Positions 6,967-17,904 of a DNA stretch of 64,000 bases are shown here, piece by piece; within the stretch, counting starts at the first letter, position 1; the number at the start of each line of letters is the position of its first letter. Source of the stretch: Candidatus Hydrogenisulfobacillus filiaventi (GTDB lineage Bacteria; Bacillota; Sulfobacillia; Sulfobacillales; R501). The position numbers were made by a program, and so were the translations under genes. A model generated the notes under the pieces. That model did no database searches and was not told the DNA's origin. It worked only from the letters and a program-made list of their open reading frames with translations. The stretch is taken from contig LR778114.1 in assembly GCA_902809825.1 (NCBI GenBank), forward strand, positions 2,356,001-2,420,000. Direction: 5' to 3'.

Positions 6967-8652
6967 TCACGGGCCGGCCAGCAGCAATGCCCGGCCCAGC
7001 CGGGCCAGGGCCTGCCGGCGCCGCCGGTAATAACTGGCCCGGGACCAGTGCAGGGTGCGGGCCAGTTCCCGGTGCGGGCCCAGGCCTTCCAGGTCATACG
7101 CCAGCAGCATGCGGTGCCCCTCGGGGTCGGCGTCCCAGTCGGGGGCGGTCCAGGTATCCCGCACCCAGGCCCGTACCAGGGCCGGTGGCGCCACCCCGGC
7201 CAGCATCCGCCCCAGCTCCGCCCCGTCCGCCGCCGGGTCCCGCAGCCAGGCCAGGGCCTGCCGCCCCAGCTCCGCCCACGCCCCTTCCTCCCGGTCCGGC
7301 GCCGGGACCGGCGCCAGCGCCCGCAGCCAGGCCAGGCGTCGGGGCCCGCTGAGGTCGATGGCCCAGCCCCGCCGTTCAGGCCGGAACCCCAGCCGTCCCC
7401 AGACTGCCTGCAGCGGATCCCCCTCCTCAGGGCCGGCCGGGCTCCACACGCCCTCCCGGTCCAGCCAGGCCCGAGCCAGGGTCAGGCCAAGGTGCCAGAG
7501 CAGAGCCGGTTCCGGGCGGGCCAATACCCAGGCCCGCACGGTAAAGGTCCGGCCGCGGCCGCCGCCAGCTGCCCACGCGGCCACCGCCCCCGGCGCCTCC
7601 CGCAGCACCCAGAGGTGCCGGGGACAGCGCCGGACCAGGAGTCCTTCCAACCCCGGCTGCCAGCCGGGTGCCAGCCAGGCCAGCCCCTCCCCGCCGGGGA
7701 CGGAAAGGGGACCGCCCCGCCCGGCCCGCAACCCCGCGGGACCGCCAAAAGCCGCCTCGGCCGCAGCCAGCGCCAGGCACCAACGCGCCACGGAAGCGGC
7801 CGGCCCCTCCTCCAGCTGGGCCAGGCAGAAGGCCAAGGCCCGGCGGCGCAACCGCTCCAAGGTCCAGGGCCGGACGCGGAAGGCGTAGGGCAGCACTTGG
7901 CGCCGGAAGCCGGCCCGGAGCCCCACCGCCCCGGCACCATACCGCTGGACCACCGGCAGCGCCTCCAGCTCCCGCCAGGCCTCGGCAGCCGTCCGGCTGC
8001 CGATCAACCCCGCCAGGCCGGGCCCATCCACCGCCGGCAGCCACAACAGGGCTGCTAGCGCCTGGTCCAGGGGATCGCGACCGCCCGGCCGCCAGGCCAG
8101 ACGACGGGAACCGGGGTGCAACAGGTGCTCCACCAGGAATCCGATGCGCATGGCCGGGTCCACCCGCCCCAACCGCGGATGCCGGGGAACCGCCACCCGC
8201 CGCCAATGGGTCGCGGCCGCCGCCAGACGCTCCAGGGCCTGGGGATGTCCGCCCGTCAGCGCCCACCATTCCGGGGCGGGGCCGGTCCCCTCCGGCTTGC
8301 CCCAGGCGGCCAGCCAGGCGGCCACCGCGGCGGTTTCCGGTAGGGGCAGGCCGAAGGCCGGGGGCGGTCCCGCGGCCGGCCAGCCCGGGTCCCGCAACCG
8401 GAGACGGGCCGGGGGTTCCGCCCCCCAGAGCAGGCGGACCGGGGCCCCGGGTCCCGCCGGTACCAGATACCGAGATGGGCGCGCCTCCTGCTCCAGTCCG
8501 CCGTGGACGGCCATCCCGTGCGGCGGTCCCTGCACCTCCGCCGCCAGCCGCCCGGCTACACCCGGTTCCCCCCACAGATAAGCAACCCCCTCCCGGGCCA
8601 GGGCCGCCTCTAAGGCGGCCCGCAAGGCGCCTGCCGCCTCCGACTGCTGCAT
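6967..8652 (-). CDS. Large STAND-like regulator with degenerate nucleotide site and C-terminal HTH
   Basis: A 561-residue protein. The N-terminus has LWGEPGVAGRLA where STAND/AAA ATPases carry GPPGVGKT, so the Lys and Thr of the P-loop are missing. Around residue 150 the stretch WALTGGHPQALERL resembles the TGGHP motif of such ATPases. The last 50 residues (ELARTLHWSRASYYRRRRQA) form a helix-turn-helix with a following basic helix. ATG 8652 was chosen because GGAGGGG lies upstream; the open frame runs further 5' but enters the promoter region of a divergent gene. No specific family is recognised. Transcription control is inferred from the HTH only. Confidence 0.62.
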   Translation of the reverse strand: MQQSEAAGALRAALEAALAREGVAYLWGEPGVAGRLAAEVQGPPHGMAVHGGLEQEARPSRYLVPAGPGAPVRLLWGAEPPARLRLRDPGWPAAGPPPAFGLPLPETAAVAAWLAAWGKPEGTGPAPEWWALTGGHPQALERLAAAATHWRRVAVPRHPRLGRVDPAMRIGFLVEHLLHPGSRRLAWRPGGRDPLDQALAALLWLPAVDGPGLAGLIGSRTAAEAWRELEALPVVQRYGAGAVGLRAGFRRQVLPYAFRVRPWTLERLRRRALAFCLAQLEEGPAASVARWCLALAAAEAAFGGPAGLRAGRGGPLSVPGGEGLAWLAPGWQPGLEGLLVRRCPRHLWVLREAPGAVAAWAAGGGRGRTFTVRAWVLARPEPALLWHLGLTLARAWLDREGVWSPAGPEEGDPLQAVWGRLGFRPERRGWAIDLSGPRRLAWLRALAPVPAPDREEGAWAELGRQALAWLRDPAADGAELGRMLAGVAPPALVRAWVRDTWTAPDWDADPEGHRMLLAYDLEGLGPHRELARTLHWSRASYYRRRRQALARLGRALLLAGP

Positions 8653-8851
8653 CACGCCGCCATCCCCTCCTCCGGTACACGCCCGCCCGGCCCCGGAGGA
8701 TCCCGCCCGGCTCCGGGGCCGGGCACTGTTCAGCATAGTCGGAAGGAGGCCGGCCGGCCCTCGCCCGATAGCAGGATGAGACCGCGGACGAGACTCCCAA
8801 GGCCGGCCGCGGGCGGGCAGGGCACATATGCCGCCAGTGGAGGTGATTACC

Positions 8852-9231
8852 ATGGGGGCCCCGGTCATTCCCAGCCGGACCTACCAGGAGTCCCTGACCG
8901 ATATCCTGGATTCCATCGCCCTGAAGAGGCGTCCCTGGCCACCTTCCTCAATGCGGAACGGGAAAAGATTCAGGCGGTTGCCAATCAAAGCGGGATGAGC
9001 CCCGCCCAGCTGGTGCAGTTCCAGGAAAGCGTCACCCACGTCCTGCAGACGGGTATCAAGTGGCAGATGCTGCTGCAGTTCAAACTGGAGGCGGTAGCCC
9101 GCCTGGCCGCCCAGTCCCCACCCTCCGGCAGCGGAAGCTCCTCCGGCAGTTCCGGCGGCGGCGCCGGCAGGTCCTCCGGCTCCCCCGGGACCGGGACGGC
9201 CGGCATCGTCGGCAGCCCCTTCCTCCGCTAA
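8852..9231 (+). pseudogene. Small conserved Firmicute protein, split by a -1 frameshift
   Basis: A strong ribosome site (GGAGGTGAT) precedes ATG 8852, which opens MGAPVIPSRTYQESLTDILD and ends in SIALK near 8926. That frame then hits TGA at 8996-8998. One frame over, the sequence continues EEASLATFLNAEREKIQAVA up to the stop at 9231. Joined, this gives about 126 residues. It resembles small spore-former proteins with a SIAL.E..L..ILNAE.EKIQ core, followed by a Ser/Gly-rich tail. A single missing G (AAGGAGGCG read as AAGAGGCG) explains the break. It could be a mutation, a sequencing error or programmed slippage. Confidence 0.68.
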
Positions 9232-9237
9232 CAGCCA

Positions 9238-9266
9238 CAGGCCCGGCGGGATGACCGCCGGGCCTG
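9238..9266. terminator. GC-rich hairpin between convergent genes
   Basis: Perfect 12-base stem CAGGCCCGGCGG / CCGCCGGGCCTG with a five-base loop, placed 7 bases after the stop at 9231 and before the convergent gene end at 9287. No clear U-tract follows on either strand, so it may be a weak bidirectional terminator. Confidence 0.5.
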
Positions 9267-9286
9267 AATTGCTGCACCGGGTCGCT

Positions 9287-9505
9287 TTAGAGGGGCTTCT
9301 GCCCGCTCCGGAGGCGGAGGGGGGAGAGGACCCCTAGGGCCAGGAAGGTGCCTACCGCCAGCTCCCCCAGCCCTAACAGCAGCCCGCCGCCGTTGAAGGG
9401 CATCAACGCCAGGCTCAGGGTGCCGAATCCGACGATGCCGAGCACGCTGCCGAGCGTCATCCGCAGCAGGGCCACCACCCGTTCCAGCGACCAGGCGCTC
9501 CTCAT
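9287..9505 (-). CDS. Two-helix membrane protein at the end of the cytochrome b operon
   Basis: A 72-residue protein with two hydrophobic helices (about residues 16-34 and 40-62) separated by PFNGGG, and a basic C-terminus. Its ATG overlaps the stop of the cytochrome b C-terminal-like gene, so it is coupled to that operon. I do not recognise a family. Position and topology suggest an accessory or assembly subunit of the quinol oxidoreductase, which is inference. Confidence 0.62.
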   Translation of the reverse strand: MRSAWSLERVVALLRMTLGSVLGIVGFGTLSLALMPFNGGGLLLGLGELAVGTFLALGVLSPLRLRSGQKPL

Positions 9506-10473
9506 CGCGAACCCACCCCCTGCTTGGGCAGGGCGCCCTCATAGCGGTGGGCCCGGTAGTAGCCGGCCCAGATGAGCTTGTAGACGCCCAGGTAGCGCGG
9601 CAGCTTGTTGAGGCCCGGGATCCAGGGGATGAGGGCCAGCAGCAACCAGACCAGCATCCCGATACTGAGGGCGATGGCGTCGTTGGCCGGCGAGTTGGCC
9701 ACGAACGGCCACTGGTAAATCCAGGTCGGGATGGTCATCCACCACGGGCCGGGGTAGCCGGGCACCGCCGGGTGGATGATGCCCCACTGGGTCCCCTTCA
9801 TCTGCAGGGGCGCAGCCGCCTGATGCAGCGGGGTGCCCTGCAGGAACAGCAGGTAGTTCTGGTTGTTGAAGCGGGTCACCACGTTGGGGTTGCGGATGAG
9901 GGCGCCGGACATGAGTCCGCTCTGACCCAGCTTGAGGGTGGCGTTCATGAGGGTCTGCACCGGACCGTAGTTGCCGGGCGGCACCACCACCGTGCCGTTG
10001 ACGTAACGGGCCTTGGTCAGGGCCTTGGTGTAGTTGTCAGCCCACATCAGCTGGGTGGCGTGGCTGGCGTGCTCATACCGGGTCAGGGCCGGCTTGATGG
10101 CCGGGTCCAGCGACTCCGCCATGGCCAGCGGCTTCAGGATGAAGTCCTGAGCGGCGTTGATGGGGTGCCAAATGCCGGAAAGCTTCTGGAGCCCGGACTC
10201 CACATTGCCGGTGCCGTGGTTGTACGGCGGTCCGTAGTTGGCGATGCGGCCCTGGCCGTTCAGGTTGTTGACCGCCACCTGTTCAAAGGTGATGGGGTTG
10301 GCGGTGGCGTAGTCCTTGATGGTCAAGGGCTTCTTCTCCGGCACCCCGAAGAGGAGGGCCGCCACCAGCACCACCACCGACACAATGGCCAGGGTGGACA
10401 TCAGGTGCTTGACGAAGTCCTCGGGCACCAGCCGGTAGTCATGGACCATGTCGTCGTAACGTGCGGCCGCCAT
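9502..10473 (-). CDS. Divergent cytochrome b/b6 C-terminal-domain-like subunit with a large insertion
   Basis: A 323-residue protein, start ATG with AAGGAGGCG upstream. Helix 1 is near residues 25-46 and helix 2 near 265-285, with about 215 mostly hydrophilic residues between. Just before helix 2 is IPTWIYQWPF, at the place where subunit IV/QcrC proteins carry PEWY or PDWY. After helix 2, LIPWIPGLNKLPRY resembles the family VPF...N.P.RRP turn. There is no cysteine at all, so no haem c or Fe-S site. It follows the cytochrome b6 gene with a 3-base gap. Assignment rests on position, the helix-2 region and the altered motif. An unrelated membrane protein cannot be excluded. Confidence 0.6.
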   Translation of the reverse strand: MAAARYDDMVHDYRLVPEDFVKHLMSTLAIVSVVVLVAALLFGVPEKKPLTIKDYATANPITFEQVAVNNLNGQGRIANYGPPYNHGTGNVESGLQKLSGIWHPINAAQDFILKPLAMAESLDPAIKPALTRYEHASHATQLMWADNYTKALTKARYVNGTVVVPPGNYGPVQTLMNATLKLGQSGLMSGALIRNPNVVTRFNNQNYLLFLQGTPLHQAAAPLQMKGTQWGIIHPAVPGYPGPWWMTIPTWIYQWPFVANSPANDAIALSIGMLVWLLLALIPWIPGLNKLPRYLGVYKLIWAGYYRAHRYEGALPKQGVGSR

Positions 10474-10476
10474 CGG

Positions 10477-11100
10477 TTACGCCTCCTTCTTGACCTTGAC
10501 GCCCTGCTCGGACTCCAGCGGGTAGGGCGGCACCACGCTCTTCAGGCGCACGCGGGCGATGTGGGCGAAGATGATGGCGCCCAGGATGAGGGGCAGGACC
10601 ACCACATGGTTGCCGAACATCTGGCCGGCGTTAGGCAGGTTGACCCAGCCGAGGCCCAGGGCGTTGAGGCCGTCCTTGGCCTGCACCGCATTCCACTGCG
10701 AGAAGAAGTCGCCGTTGATCAGGTACCCGGTGAAAGCGGTGGGGATAGCAATGAACATCGCCAGAGCACCCAGGAACCAGGTGCCGCCCCGGCCGCCCCG
10801 CCAGGCGCCGGTGAAGAAGACCCGCCAGAGGTGCAGCATCATGAAGAAGAAGAACGCCTGCACGGCCCAGAAGTGCACCGCGGCCGCGAAGCGCATCAGC
10901 CCGTTGTAGGACCAGCTGGCCGGCCCGTTGGCGGCCAGGATGATGCCCGAAATTACCAGCACCACGAAGCTGGAGGCCGTGAGCGAACCCAGCATGTACA
11001 TGAAGCCCTGGGCGTACTCCGGCATTTTCTCCGGGAGCCAGGTGTCCACCGACATCAGCTCCGCGAAGTGCTTGCGTGAGGCCGTCGTCCAGTTAGCCAC
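10477..11100 (-). CDS. petB: Cytochrome b6-type N-terminal subunit of quinol:acceptor oxidoreductase
   Basis: A 207-residue, four-helix dihaem cytochrome b. Helix B carries VHFWAVQAFFFFMMLHLW, with two His 14 positions apart. Helix D carries NHVVVLPLILGAIIFAHI, with two His 15 positions apart, the spacing typical of b6 rather than bc1 cytochromes. The start is GTG with AAAGGAG upstream. It would oxidise menaquinol and pass electrons to a Rieske protein, but no Rieske or cytochrome c gene lies in this operon. Confidence 0.88.
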   Translation of the reverse strand: MANWTTASRKHFAELMSVDTWLPEKMPEYAQGFMYMLGSLTASSFVVLVISGIILAANGPASWSYNGLMRFAAAVHFWAVQAFFFFMMLHLWRVFFTGAWRGGRGGTWFLGALAMFIAIPTAFTGYLINGDFFSQWNAVQAKDGLNALGLGWVNLPNAGQMFGNHVVVLPLILGAIIFAHIARVRLKSVVPPYPLESEQGVKVKKEA

Positions 11101-14056: not shown

Positions 14057-14172
14057 CACGTCCGCCTCCCCCCATCCCTCGCCCTACCATATGCGGGGAC
14101 GGGCTCTGCCCGCATAGCGTGTCCGGGGTCCGGCACCCTAAGCGGAGAGGCATCCGGAAAGGAGGCGGACCC

Positions 14173-14871
14173 ATGGGCCGACGCAGGTGGTGCGCGGTCC
14201 TGGCGGCATGCGCCCTGGCGGGGCTGGGCGCCGCGCCGGGCCGGGGAGCCCGGCATTCATCCCCGGTCCCGGCCCCGGTGGCGGGGGACGAACCGGCCTT
14301 GATCGCCGGCACCTGCCGCCTGGGCAGCGTGCTGCTGGTGGCGCCCCATGTCGATCCCGGCCGGCACCGCCCGAAGGTGCGGGCGGTCCTGCGGGTGGAT
14401 AACGGGCCGCCGGAGCCGGTGCGGGGGCCCGTCCGGGCACTGCCCGGCCTCCCCCCGGGTTCCCATACGGTGGAACTGGCGTTGGAGGACATCGGAGGCC
14501 GGCCGCTCACCGAGGCCGGCACCCGCTGCCGGTTTACGGTGAGCCTGCCGGCGCCGCGCACGGTCAACCCCGCCCCGCGCCTGGAGGCCGTCACCGCGCA
14601 GGCCCGGCCCGGCGGGGTGACGGTGCGGATCGCGGTGGAGCATTTCCGCTTCCCGGGCAGTCCGGCCAGGCGAACGCCCGTCCTGACCGGCTACCTCTGG
14701 GCCTTCGCCGACGGGCGGCCGGCCGGGGTCTACGCGACGCCCCGCTTCCGGCTGGCCCTGCCGCCGGGGCCCCACCAGCTGACGGTGGGTCTCTACGATA
14801 CCGAGGACATCCTGGCCGGTCCGCCGGCCGTGGTGCTGCGTACCCTGACAGTCACGGTGCCGGGGGCCTGA
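14173..14871 (+). CDS. Secreted protein of unknown function
   Basis: A 232-residue protein with an apparent signal peptide (MGRRRWCAVLAACALAGLGA, with a possible cleavage around Ala20-Ala27). The rest is rich in beta-type segments: VRAVLRVDNGPPEP, GSHTVELALEDIGG and GPHQLTVGLYDTED suggest two Ig-like/Big domains with internal similarity. A strong GGAGG lies 7 bases before ATG 14173. It is divergent from the peptidoglycan-binding gene. I recognise no family. Confidence 0.62.
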   Translation: MGRRRWCAVLAACALAGLGAAPGRGARHSSPVPAPVAGDEPALIAGTCRLGSVLLVAPHVDPGRHRPKVRAVLRVDNGPPEPVRGPVRALPGLPPGSHTVELALEDIGGRPLTEAGTRCRFTVSLPAPRTVNPAPRLEAVTAQARPGGVTVRIAVEHFRFPGSPARRTPVLTGYLWAFADGRPAGVYATPRFRLALPPGPHQLTVGLYDTEDILAGPPAVVLRTLTVTVPGA

Positions 14872-15318: not shown

Positions 15319-15858
15319 CTACTCGCCGGCGGTAGCCGGGGCCGGGAAGAAGCGGGTGATGTTGACCAGCCCTTCAAAGGGATTGCGGCAATGACGGCAA
15401 TAGTAGACCGACCGGCAGGCAGCCGGGCCGAACCGGCTCTGCAGCACCGTGTCGGTGGACCCGCAGTAGGGGCAGGCCACGACGTCCTGGCCCTCGGCCG
15501 GGGTATTCAAGGTCTGGCCGATGCCCAGGTTGAGGAGATGACGCCAGCCCTCGGGGGTCACCTTCTCCGCCGACCACAACGCCTCCAGCGACCAGCTGAC
15601 ATCAACGTCCTCCAGGTTGGTGGCGCGGCGGATGGCGGCAATCGCCCGCTGGCGCATGATAGCCTGGCCGGCGCAGGCGGCATAGGTGGGCAGCAGGGTG
15701 ACCCGCACCCGCGTCCCCCGGCAGCGGACCGACTCCACCATGCCGAGGGCCACAATGCTCACCCCCGGCATTTCGGGATCGCTGACCGTCTCCAATGCCT
15801 GCCAGACCGCCTTTTCCACCTCTTGGCCGCTACGCCGCGGATTCGGGAGCCGTCCCAC
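15319..15858 (-). CDS. PaaD-like protein (DUF59 domain plus zinc ribbon)
   Basis: A 179-residue protein. An N-terminal MIP18/DUF59 domain (about 10-100) carries ETVSDPEMPGVSIVALGMV. A C-terminal zinc-ribbon has CPYCGS and CRHCRNPFEG. This is the PaaD architecture: PaaD is thought to assist maturation of the metal/Fe-S parts of phenylacetyl-CoA epoxidase. It is the last gene of a three-gene run with PaaC-like and PaaA-like genes. No paaB, paaE, paaG, paaZ or paaK is in the window. Confidence 0.85.
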   Translation of the reverse strand: MGRLPNPRRSGQEVEKAVWQALETVSDPEMPGVSIVALGMVESVRCRGTRVRVTLLPTYAACAGQAIMRQRAIAAIRRATNLEDVDVSWSLEALWSAEKVTPEGWRHLLNLGIGQTLNTPAEGQDVVACPYCGSTDTVLQSRFGPAACRSVYYCRHCRNPFEGLVNITRFFPAPATAGE

Positions 15859-15896: not shown

Positions 15897-16682
15897 CTAG
15901 CGGGCCGGCAACGGCACCCGATTCAGTGCCGTGAGCACTTCATCCAGATAGATGGTGTGGAAGCCCCGACGGCCGTCCGCCAGGGGATCAACCGGACCGG
16001 GGGCGGTCAGGGCCAGGCCCGTAGCCGCGGCCAGAGCCCCCACCCGTTGCTCCCACAGCCGCCGGGGCTGGTCCAGGGCGGGCACTGCCCCGGAGTCACG
16101 CAACGCCTCCGCCCCTTCACCCCAGGAGAACAGGTCGGCCAGGAGGGGCTGCAGCACCTCCACCGCCCGGGCCAATGCCCCCCGGGCAGCCGCCCCGTCC
16201 GCGGCCAGACGCCGCACCCACTGCTCATAGTGGCGGCTGAAGTAATACTGCTCGTGGGCCAGGCGGGCAGCGGTCTCCGCCAGGGGACGGTAAGCCGAGT
16301 GCTCCAGCGCCTCCAGGCGGCCCAGGTTGAATACGTCGAACACGTAATGGCGGACGACCGTCAAGGGCCAGTTGTAGGGGGGAGCCCCTTCCAGGCCGTT
16401 GGGCCATTCCACCAGCCGAGCGTTACGCCGCTCCCCTGCCCCGCGCATCTGGGCGAGACGGTCGGGGTCCCTTTCGCCCAGCTCGCCCAGCAGGCGGTAG
16501 AAAGCGGCCGCATAGCCGAACTCGTTCTGGCCCATGGTGGCCAGGGCCACATCCTCATCCAGGAAGGGAGCCAGGCCTAGCCACTGGCTGTCGCGCACCC
16601 CCAGTACCAGGAGGTCGTCCGCTATCTGGTAGAGGAGGTCCACCAGCGCGGCATGAAACTCCAGCGAGCGGTCGTTCGCCAT
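15897..16682 (-). CDS. PaaC-like ferritin-fold subunit
   Basis: A 261-residue protein matching PaaC, the structural partner of PaaA in phenylacetyl-CoA epoxidase. It shows the LVLGVRDSQWLGLAPFLDED segment, RLVEWPNGLEGAPPYNWPL and a C-terminal GRRGFHTIYLDEVL (family GKKGLHTEHL). Where diiron proteins have ExxH it reads QNEFGYA (Glu54, Tyr57), and the second site EQYYFSRHY lacks the His, consistent with a non-catalytic PaaC role. ATG 16682 has GGAGGGGG upstream. The open frame continues far 5' but overlaps paaA, so that extension is not used. Confidence 0.83.
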   Translation of the reverse strand: MANDRSLEFHAALVDLLYQIADDLLVLGVRDSQWLGLAPFLDEDVALATMGQNEFGYAAAFYRLLGELGERDPDRLAQMRGAGERRNARLVEWPNGLEGAPPYNWPLTVVRHYVFDVFNLGRLEALEHSAYRPLAETAARLAHEQYYFSRHYEQWVRRLAADGAAARGALARAVEVLQPLLADLFSWGEGAEALRDSGAVPALDQPRRLWEQRVGALAAATGLALTAPGPVDPLADGRRGFHTIYLDEVLTALNRVPLPAR

Positions 16683-16699
16683 TGCGGCCCCCTCCTTGC

Positions 16700-17662
16700 C
16701 TAGGGACGTGCCGGGCCGACGCCGGCCAGATGATCGCGGGCACTTTCGTAGCCGATGCGGCGCAACGCCAGCCGGCGCAGGACGGGCCCCTGGTCCGGGG
16801 GCGCGGCCAGACGCCCCCAGTCGGGGGCGGTGTAACGCCACACCCGCGCTGCCGGCTGGAAGGCCAGGTCCGCGTCCGGGGGCTGCAGGCCCAGGCTGCG
16901 CAGGCGGGGGACGTAGACGCTCAGGTACCGCTGCCGCAGTTCCTCGTTGGACTTGGTGCGCAGGCGGTAGCGGAGCGCCCGCAGCTGATGGGTACCGGGC
17001 CAGTGTTCCGGCGGTCCAAAAAAGAGCAGCAGGTCCTCCCACCAGCGGTTGAGGGCCTCCTGCAGCTGGCCGCGGTTGACGAGGCTGGCGTTGAGCCAGC
17101 GTTCGGCCAAGGTCTGACCCTGCTGGGCATGGAACTCCTCGCTCTGCACAATGCGGGTCAGTACACGGGCATAAGGGGCATAGGAGGACCCCACGAAGCC
17201 GCTGTGGAGGATAACCGCCGCGCCGCTGACCAGCCACAGCAGCACCACTACGTCGGCCCAGCCCGTGAGGGGCCGCCCGTACACCGTCTGGTAGCGGACC
17301 CGGCCCGCCGTCAGCTGCGCCAGCAGGCCCCCCGGTTCCGGCACCGGCTCCGGCAGCAGGTCCTCTGCCAGGCGCAGCACCATCTCCGCGTAGCCCAGGT
17401 TCTCCCGCACCATCGCCACCATGGCGATGCGATCCTCCAGCGAGGGGGCCGCCGCTACCCATTCCCGTTCGGCCATGGCCTCCACCAACCGGCTCATGGC
17501 GTGCATCAGCACCAGCCGCCGCGCCTCGTCCCGATACTCCTCCGGCATCCAATCCCCGGTCTCGACCTTCTCGCCACGATCGATCCGGGCTTCAAAAGCC
17601 AGGCGGAGGTCCTCCGTCTGCCAGGGCCCCGACCCCGGGACCCTCCCGTGGTCTGTCGCCAT
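16700..17662 (-). CDS. PaaA-like protein with degenerate diiron site
   Basis: A 320-residue protein clearly alignable with PaaA, the catalytic subunit of the epoxidase that activates the ring of phenylacetyl-CoA: GDWMPEEYR near 36, the APSL segment near 72, SYAPYARVLTRI near 150, KSNEELRQRYL and VPRLRSLGLQPPDADL. Against E. coli PaaA from memory, the four iron-binding elements appear as Arg58 (for Glu), Asn88/Tyr91 (for Glu-x-x-His), Ser136 (for Asp) and an intact Glu165-x-x-His168. Most of the site is therefore lost. GGAGGGAG precedes ATG 17662. It heads the PaaA-PaaC-PaaD-like run. Confidence 0.82.
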   Translation of the reverse strand: MATDHGRVPGSGPWQTEDLRLAFEARIDRGEKVETGDWMPEEYRDEARRLVLMHAMSRLVEAMAEREWVAAAPSLEDRIAMVAMVRENLGYAEMVLRLAEDLLPEPVPEPGGLLAQLTAGRVRYQTVYGRPLTGWADVVVLLWLVSGAAVILHSGFVGSSYAPYARVLTRIVQSEEFHAQQGQTLAERWLNASLVNRGQLQEALNRWWEDLLLFFGPPEHWPGTHQLRALRYRLRTKSNEELRQRYLSVYVPRLRSLGLQPPDADLAFQPAARVWRYTAPDWGRLAAPPDQGPVLRRLALRRIGYESARDHLAGVGPARP

Positions 17663-17880: not shown

Positions 17881-17904
17881 AAAAACGCCGGCCCGGCGGC
17901 CGGC
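17881..17904 (-). terminator. Intrinsic terminator after spoIIE
   Basis: On the minus strand GCCGGC, six-base loop, GCCGGC, G, then TTTTT, starting about 10 bases past the spoIIE stop. The stem is short but entirely GC. Confidence 0.55.

Follow-up and report, generated by a model that had tools for sequence, protein, structure and literature searches.

A PaaA-PaaC-PaaD operon with replaced diiron ligands in Candidatus Hydrogenisulfobacillus filiaventi, a possible non-catalytic derivative of the phenylacetyl-CoA epoxidase core

The window analysed here, the whole 64,000-nucleotide stretch of contig LR778114.1, holds three adjacent genes homologous to paaA, paaC and paaD. These genes and their products are referred to below as those of the window, and the features are as follows.

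17887..17904, minus strand: terminator-like hairpin after spoIIE, parting spoIIE from paaA (sequence).
16700..17662, minus strand: paaA, PaaA homologue of 320 aa (open reading frame, profile, alignment and AF2 evidence).
16683..16699, no strand assigned: paaA-paaC junction of 17 bp, the position of paaB in relatives, holding the Shine-Dalgarno-like AAGGAGG of paaC.
15897..16682, minus strand: paaC, PaaC homologue of 261 aa with the site L/E/Y/D/Q/F (AF2 pLDDT 92.2).
15319..15858, minus strand: paaD, PaaD homologue with MIP18/FeS_assembly_P and zinc-ribbon parts, all conserved Cys retained.

The spoIIE gene lies upstream of paaA and tilS lies farther downstream of the operon, and a Shine-Dalgarno-like purine run is found ahead of each of the three genes. 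On the opposite strand, the gap between paaD and tilS holds a predicted protein of 250 aa (14119-14871, plus strand) with a weak, sub-threshold match to DUF4399.

Window PaaA matches the PaaA_PaaC family PF05138 with 171.7 bits (E 2e-50), far above the gathering cut-off of 28.5 bits, and its score of 226.9 bits with the PaaA equivalog profile TIGR02156 is under the cut-off of 280 bits. The closest PDB sequence is PaaA 4iit_A (E 5e-46). The AF2 model (pLDDT 86.9) has the PaaA fold, the best PDB structure found by Foldseek being 3pw8_C, PaaA of a PaaAC complex (E 2e-20, TM 0.85/0.90). The initial annotation had aligned the whole protein with PaaA and had proposed a structure model; full-length homology and the predicted fold bear this alignment out. 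Also its PaaC- and PaaD-like partners are well founded, with 172.4 bits for window PaaC in TIGR02158 (cut-off 133.35) and 128.6 bits for window PaaD in TIGR02159 (cut-off 108.15), and in PaaD every conserved cysteine of the MIP18 and zinc-ribbon parts is present. Window PaaA shares 39-44% identity with its relatives, which share 54-75% among themselves, and in trees it sits on a long branch indicating fast evolution.

The diiron ligands of E. coli PaaA are E42, E72, H75, D126, E155 and H158, and a lysine bridge links K68 to E49, E72 and D126 (PMC4498308). Alignment to E. coli PaaA shows that four of the six ligands are replaced in window PaaA, E42 by R58, E72 by N88, H75 by Y91 and D126 by S146, and that only E155 and H158 are retained, as E175 and H178. 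The bridge has lost K68 (now M84) together with E72 and D126, and keeps only E49 as E65. The codons concerned, all placed by alignment, are these.

17489..17491, minus strand: R58 (E. coli PaaA E42).
17411..17413, minus strand: M84 (E. coli K68, lysine bridge).
17399..17401, minus strand: N88 (E. coli E72).
17390..17392, minus strand: Y91 (E. coli H75).
17225..17227, minus strand: S146 (E. coli D126).
17129..17140, minus strand: E175-x-x-H178, the sole intact ligand pair (E. coli E155/H158).

At the eight ligand and bridge positions the signature E-E-K-E-H-D-E-H was identical in 67 of 69 aligned PaaA, drawn from Bacillota, Chloroflexota, Deinococcota, Bacteroidota, Ignavibacteriota and Thermomicrobiota together with E. 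coli, the only exceptions being window PaaA and the PaaA of a third operon (L103) in genome G111. Since the affected positions are the invariant catalytic ones, the loss of ligands in window PaaA is not a matter of chance. The initial annotation had read R58, N88, Y91, a Ser for the Asp and an intact E-x-x-H correctly, but its numbering of Ser136, Glu165 and His168 was ten off, these residues being S146, E175 and H178. It had also considered that the ligands might be shifted and present; pairwise and multiple alignments place the replaced residues at the ligand positions, and the ligands are truly missing. That the whole observation is an artefact of misalignment, of sequencing error or of an overlooked intact PaaA at another locus is a reading to which we give almost no credence: pairwise, multiple and HMM alignments are concordant, the closed genome of 2,570,337 bases shows no frameshift here, its only two PF05138 proteins are window PaaA and window PaaC, which leaves no intact PaaA elsewhere, and nothing was found in favour of it. 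Elsewhere in the alignment, both degenerate PaaA have a histidine (H153) for an invariant Gln, and the pocket positions of window PaaA show the conservative changes K103>R and F108>Y.

The metal site of window PaaC reads L/E/Y/D/Q/F, and that of most relatives E/E/H/D/E/H. Both subunits of the window have thus lost their site. An apparently complete diiron set (E or D, E-x-x-H, D, E-x-x-H) was seen at the PaaC loci in L003-L089 in most non-proteobacterial phyla sampled; most PaaC of the sampled phyla have the apparent full six-ligand set, 33 as E/E/H/D/E/H and 10 as D/E/H/D/E/H, E. coli PaaC being without it. Judged by these ligands, a full-ligand PaaC might add a second diiron centre to its complex.

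Profile search of the whole genome gave no PaaB (PF06243). This subunit is present in 61 genomes of the class and in every listed class genome with a full PaaA operon, and paaB lies between paaA and paaC in the class operons inspected. Nor did the genome give a match to PaaE (TIGR02160), PaaK or a full-length PaaZ, with only weak aldehyde-dehydrogenase-type matches for the last. The absence of these three is by itself weakly informative on the operon, because two relatives whose paaABC is intact likewise have no PaaK, PaaE or PaaZ scoring over the cut-offs. In these two relatives (L092 of G129 and L094 of G091) an intact paaABC(D) has a TetR gene beside paaA, with PaaK, PaaE and PaaZ under the cut-offs, and their operons may act on a substrate other than phenylacetyl-CoA. 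For window PaaA, the claim of the initial annotation that it cannot be an ordinary epoxidase is strengthened by the replaced ligands and lysine bridge, the lost PaaC site, the deletion of paaB and the absence of PaaE, PaaK and full-length PaaZ.

The other break of the signature lies in an operon of the order tetR-paaA-paaC-paaD without paaB (L103; G111:C1:2518000-2537000, 8517-10603, minus strand), in a genome with a chromosome of 3,472,898 bases that is probably Sulfobacillus acidophilus DSM 10332, of the same order as the genome of the window. PaaA and PaaB are intact in two further operons of this genome. The L103 operon has L/E/E/A/H/A/E/S at the eight PaaA positions and E/G/H/D/V/R at its PaaC site, both sites being broken. 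Its paaC starts directly after AAGGAGGTGG at the end of paaA with a strong ribosome-binding site, its open reading frames are intact and its PaaD cysteines are all retained. The TetR-family gene upstream of its paaA is likewise found in intact operons of the class. Both degenerate operons thus lack paaB, have broken PaaA and PaaC sites and keep an intact PaaD and intact open reading frames; L103 differs from the window operon in that its PaaA retains H91 and not H178, in the TetR gene upstream and in the two further intact operons of its genome. Among the class loci whose ligands were read, L103 was the only further degenerate PaaA; none was found among the new genomes of a 398-genome sample of the phylum, and all aligned PaaA from loci found in the contigs of further genomes keep the signature. 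Further third copies of PaaA-like genes in class genomes (L108-L119) were rejected as degenerate cases, having kept their iron ligands and belonging to other subfamilies. Among these, L109:8495-9758, L110:6802-9102, L111:8034-9297 and L112:8355-9618 encode PaaA-like diiron proteins that lack the lysine bridge but have intact ligands; each lies beside a PaaD-like gene and without paaB, and L110 also has a PaaC-like protein.

The residues kept in the two degenerate PaaA bear on the proposal, also made in the initial annotation, of a single-metal enzyme. Such a re-purposed enzyme would use a mononuclear or other site built from E175, H178, E65 and perhaps H153 on another substrate, and could draw on the retained E175-x-x-H178 and E65, on the histidine for the invariant Gln in both degenerate PaaA and on the retention of PaaD, a proposed iron-maturation factor. 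The proposal is disfavoured because the sole similar operon found keeps a different ligand subset, H91 without H178, and no common metal set results. Window PaaC has a broken site as well, no PaaE was found, and in E. coli the product or activity falls more than 100-fold when PaaB is lost (PMC9493321). We regard a metal enzyme as improbable.

The distribution of losses within window PaaA is strongly regional. Among 115 positions that do not vary in relatives, window PaaA has lost 35 of the 69 in residues 58-196 versus 3 of the 46 elsewhere (p 2.6e-7), with 0 of 18 lost in residues 197-253, and L103 PaaA has the same regional bias to residues 58-196 (p 1e-4), both p-values being somewhat flattering as this boundary was set after the losses had been inspected. 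The initial annotation held that the parts outside the catalytic site are under constraint, and these counts agree with that, as do the kept PaaD cysteines. Codon-position GC of the three window genes is like that of neighbour genes, and neither they nor the three L103 genes contain a stop or frameshift. On this indirect evidence, even decay of window paaA is disfavoured, although selection may have relaxed recently, and most likely the operon has been under selection up to recent times at least.

The main rival to a selected non-catalytic role is a decaying relic, in which this autotroph, with its narrow range and its genome of 2.57 Mb, has lost the phenylacetate pathway, and paaACD, now with no current function, gathers missense changes and would in time break. 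The missing rest of the pathway, the fast evolution and long branch of PaaA and the reported narrow substrate range of the hydrogen-oxidising autotroph Candidatus Hydrogenisulfobacillus filiaventi R50 (PMC10080006) all fit a relic. Neutral simulation on a related paaA to equal loss gave about 3 stops and a probability of no stop of 0.035-0.05, frameshifts not counted, so that a stop-free paaA at about 0.04 is only moderately unlikely under neutrality. Against a relic stand the regional losses, the absence of stops and frameshifts in all six genes, the normal codon-position GC, the intact cysteines and zinc ribbon of PaaD, and the persistence of the L103 state in G111 beside two operons with intact PaaA and with a TetR gene. 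On balance we consider a relic rather unlikely.

A separate question of history, compatible with a non-catalytic scaffold, is whether both degenerate operons have one origin before the split of R50 and Sulfobacillus and represent an old pseudo-PaaACD family, for which we see a substantial chance that stays below even. The PaaA tree groups window and L103 PaaA with 96/96 support, the tree of PaaA and PaaC groups both operons with 96/99 support, jointly novel columns have the same residue in 12 of 64 cases versus 3.8 by permutation (p 0.0002), and paaB is missing from both. Both are however long branches that meet in the tree, and the shared novel residues of PaaA are nearly all core residues, which may plausibly have converged. 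In the tree without PaaA residues 58-196 they were never grouped (0% of bootstraps), although the AU test did not reject the grouping (p-AU 0.37). Tree support for one origin is present with the core and gone without it, and parallel loss is equally possible.

We lean slightly towards the view that paaA-paaC-paaD of the window derives from the 1,2-phenylacetyl-CoA epoxidase core, has lost catalysis and has been kept for a non-catalytic job. In a fuller version, a metal-free complex of the PaaAC type would have arisen when paaB and both metal sites were lost, either on one occasion or independently in the two lineages, and selection would have retained it for a role without catalysis, be it as an acyl-CoA sink, as a sensor or as a chaperone acting with PaaD; this we hold as a tentative explanation that falls a little short of probable. 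In favour of such a scaffold we would count the two signature breaks in 69, the loss of paaB, the regional losses, the normal GC, the simulation, L103, the fold and the stability of PaaAC, E. coli PaaAC being a stable subcomplex without PaaB (PMC4498308). Against it count the fast evolution of window PaaA and the fact that the two cases keep different residues and are ungrouped once the core is omitted. In the proposed scaffold, PaaA and PaaC of the window would still pair as a PaaAC heterodimer with no diiron centre, which would accept no electrons and perform no epoxidation. Its job would most simply be that of a sink or sensor which binds an acyl-CoA in what was the PaaA pocket, and PaaD may act on this complex or on another client. 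Acyl-CoA binding is perhaps the simplest positive guess, from the conservative changes at K103 and F108 only, and a regulatory role is a guess as well.

No report of a ligand-less PaaA was found in the searched literature. If selected, the operon would add to the bacterial multicomponent monooxygenase fold a pseudoenzyme branch in which neither of the two paralogous subunits is active, and a role of PaaA, PaaC and PaaD would be separable from epoxidation, which bears on the function of PaaD. In any case the three genes are likely auto-annotated as epoxidase subunits and are not evidence of aromatic degradation in this autotroph.

Compared with PaaA of E. coli (3PVR/3PW8) and Klebsiella (4IIT), window PaaA is alike in full-length homology, in fold and in an operon with PaaC and PaaD homologues, and unlike in its four replaced diiron ligands and bridge Lys, in having no PaaB or PaaE partner and in scoring under the TIGR02156 cut-off. 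The PaaA/PaaC-like SSO1313 of Sulfolobus (4MUD) has the PaaA_PaaC family fold in common with window PaaA, but is distant (E 9e-8) and has another genomic setting. That selection can maintain a PaaA fold without activity has a precedent in E. coli PaaC, a PaaA homologue without metal or diiron ligands that serves as a structural subunit (PMC4498308) in a scaffold role; unlike there, the degenerate protein of the window is the PaaA orthologue itself, with a degenerate PaaC beside it.
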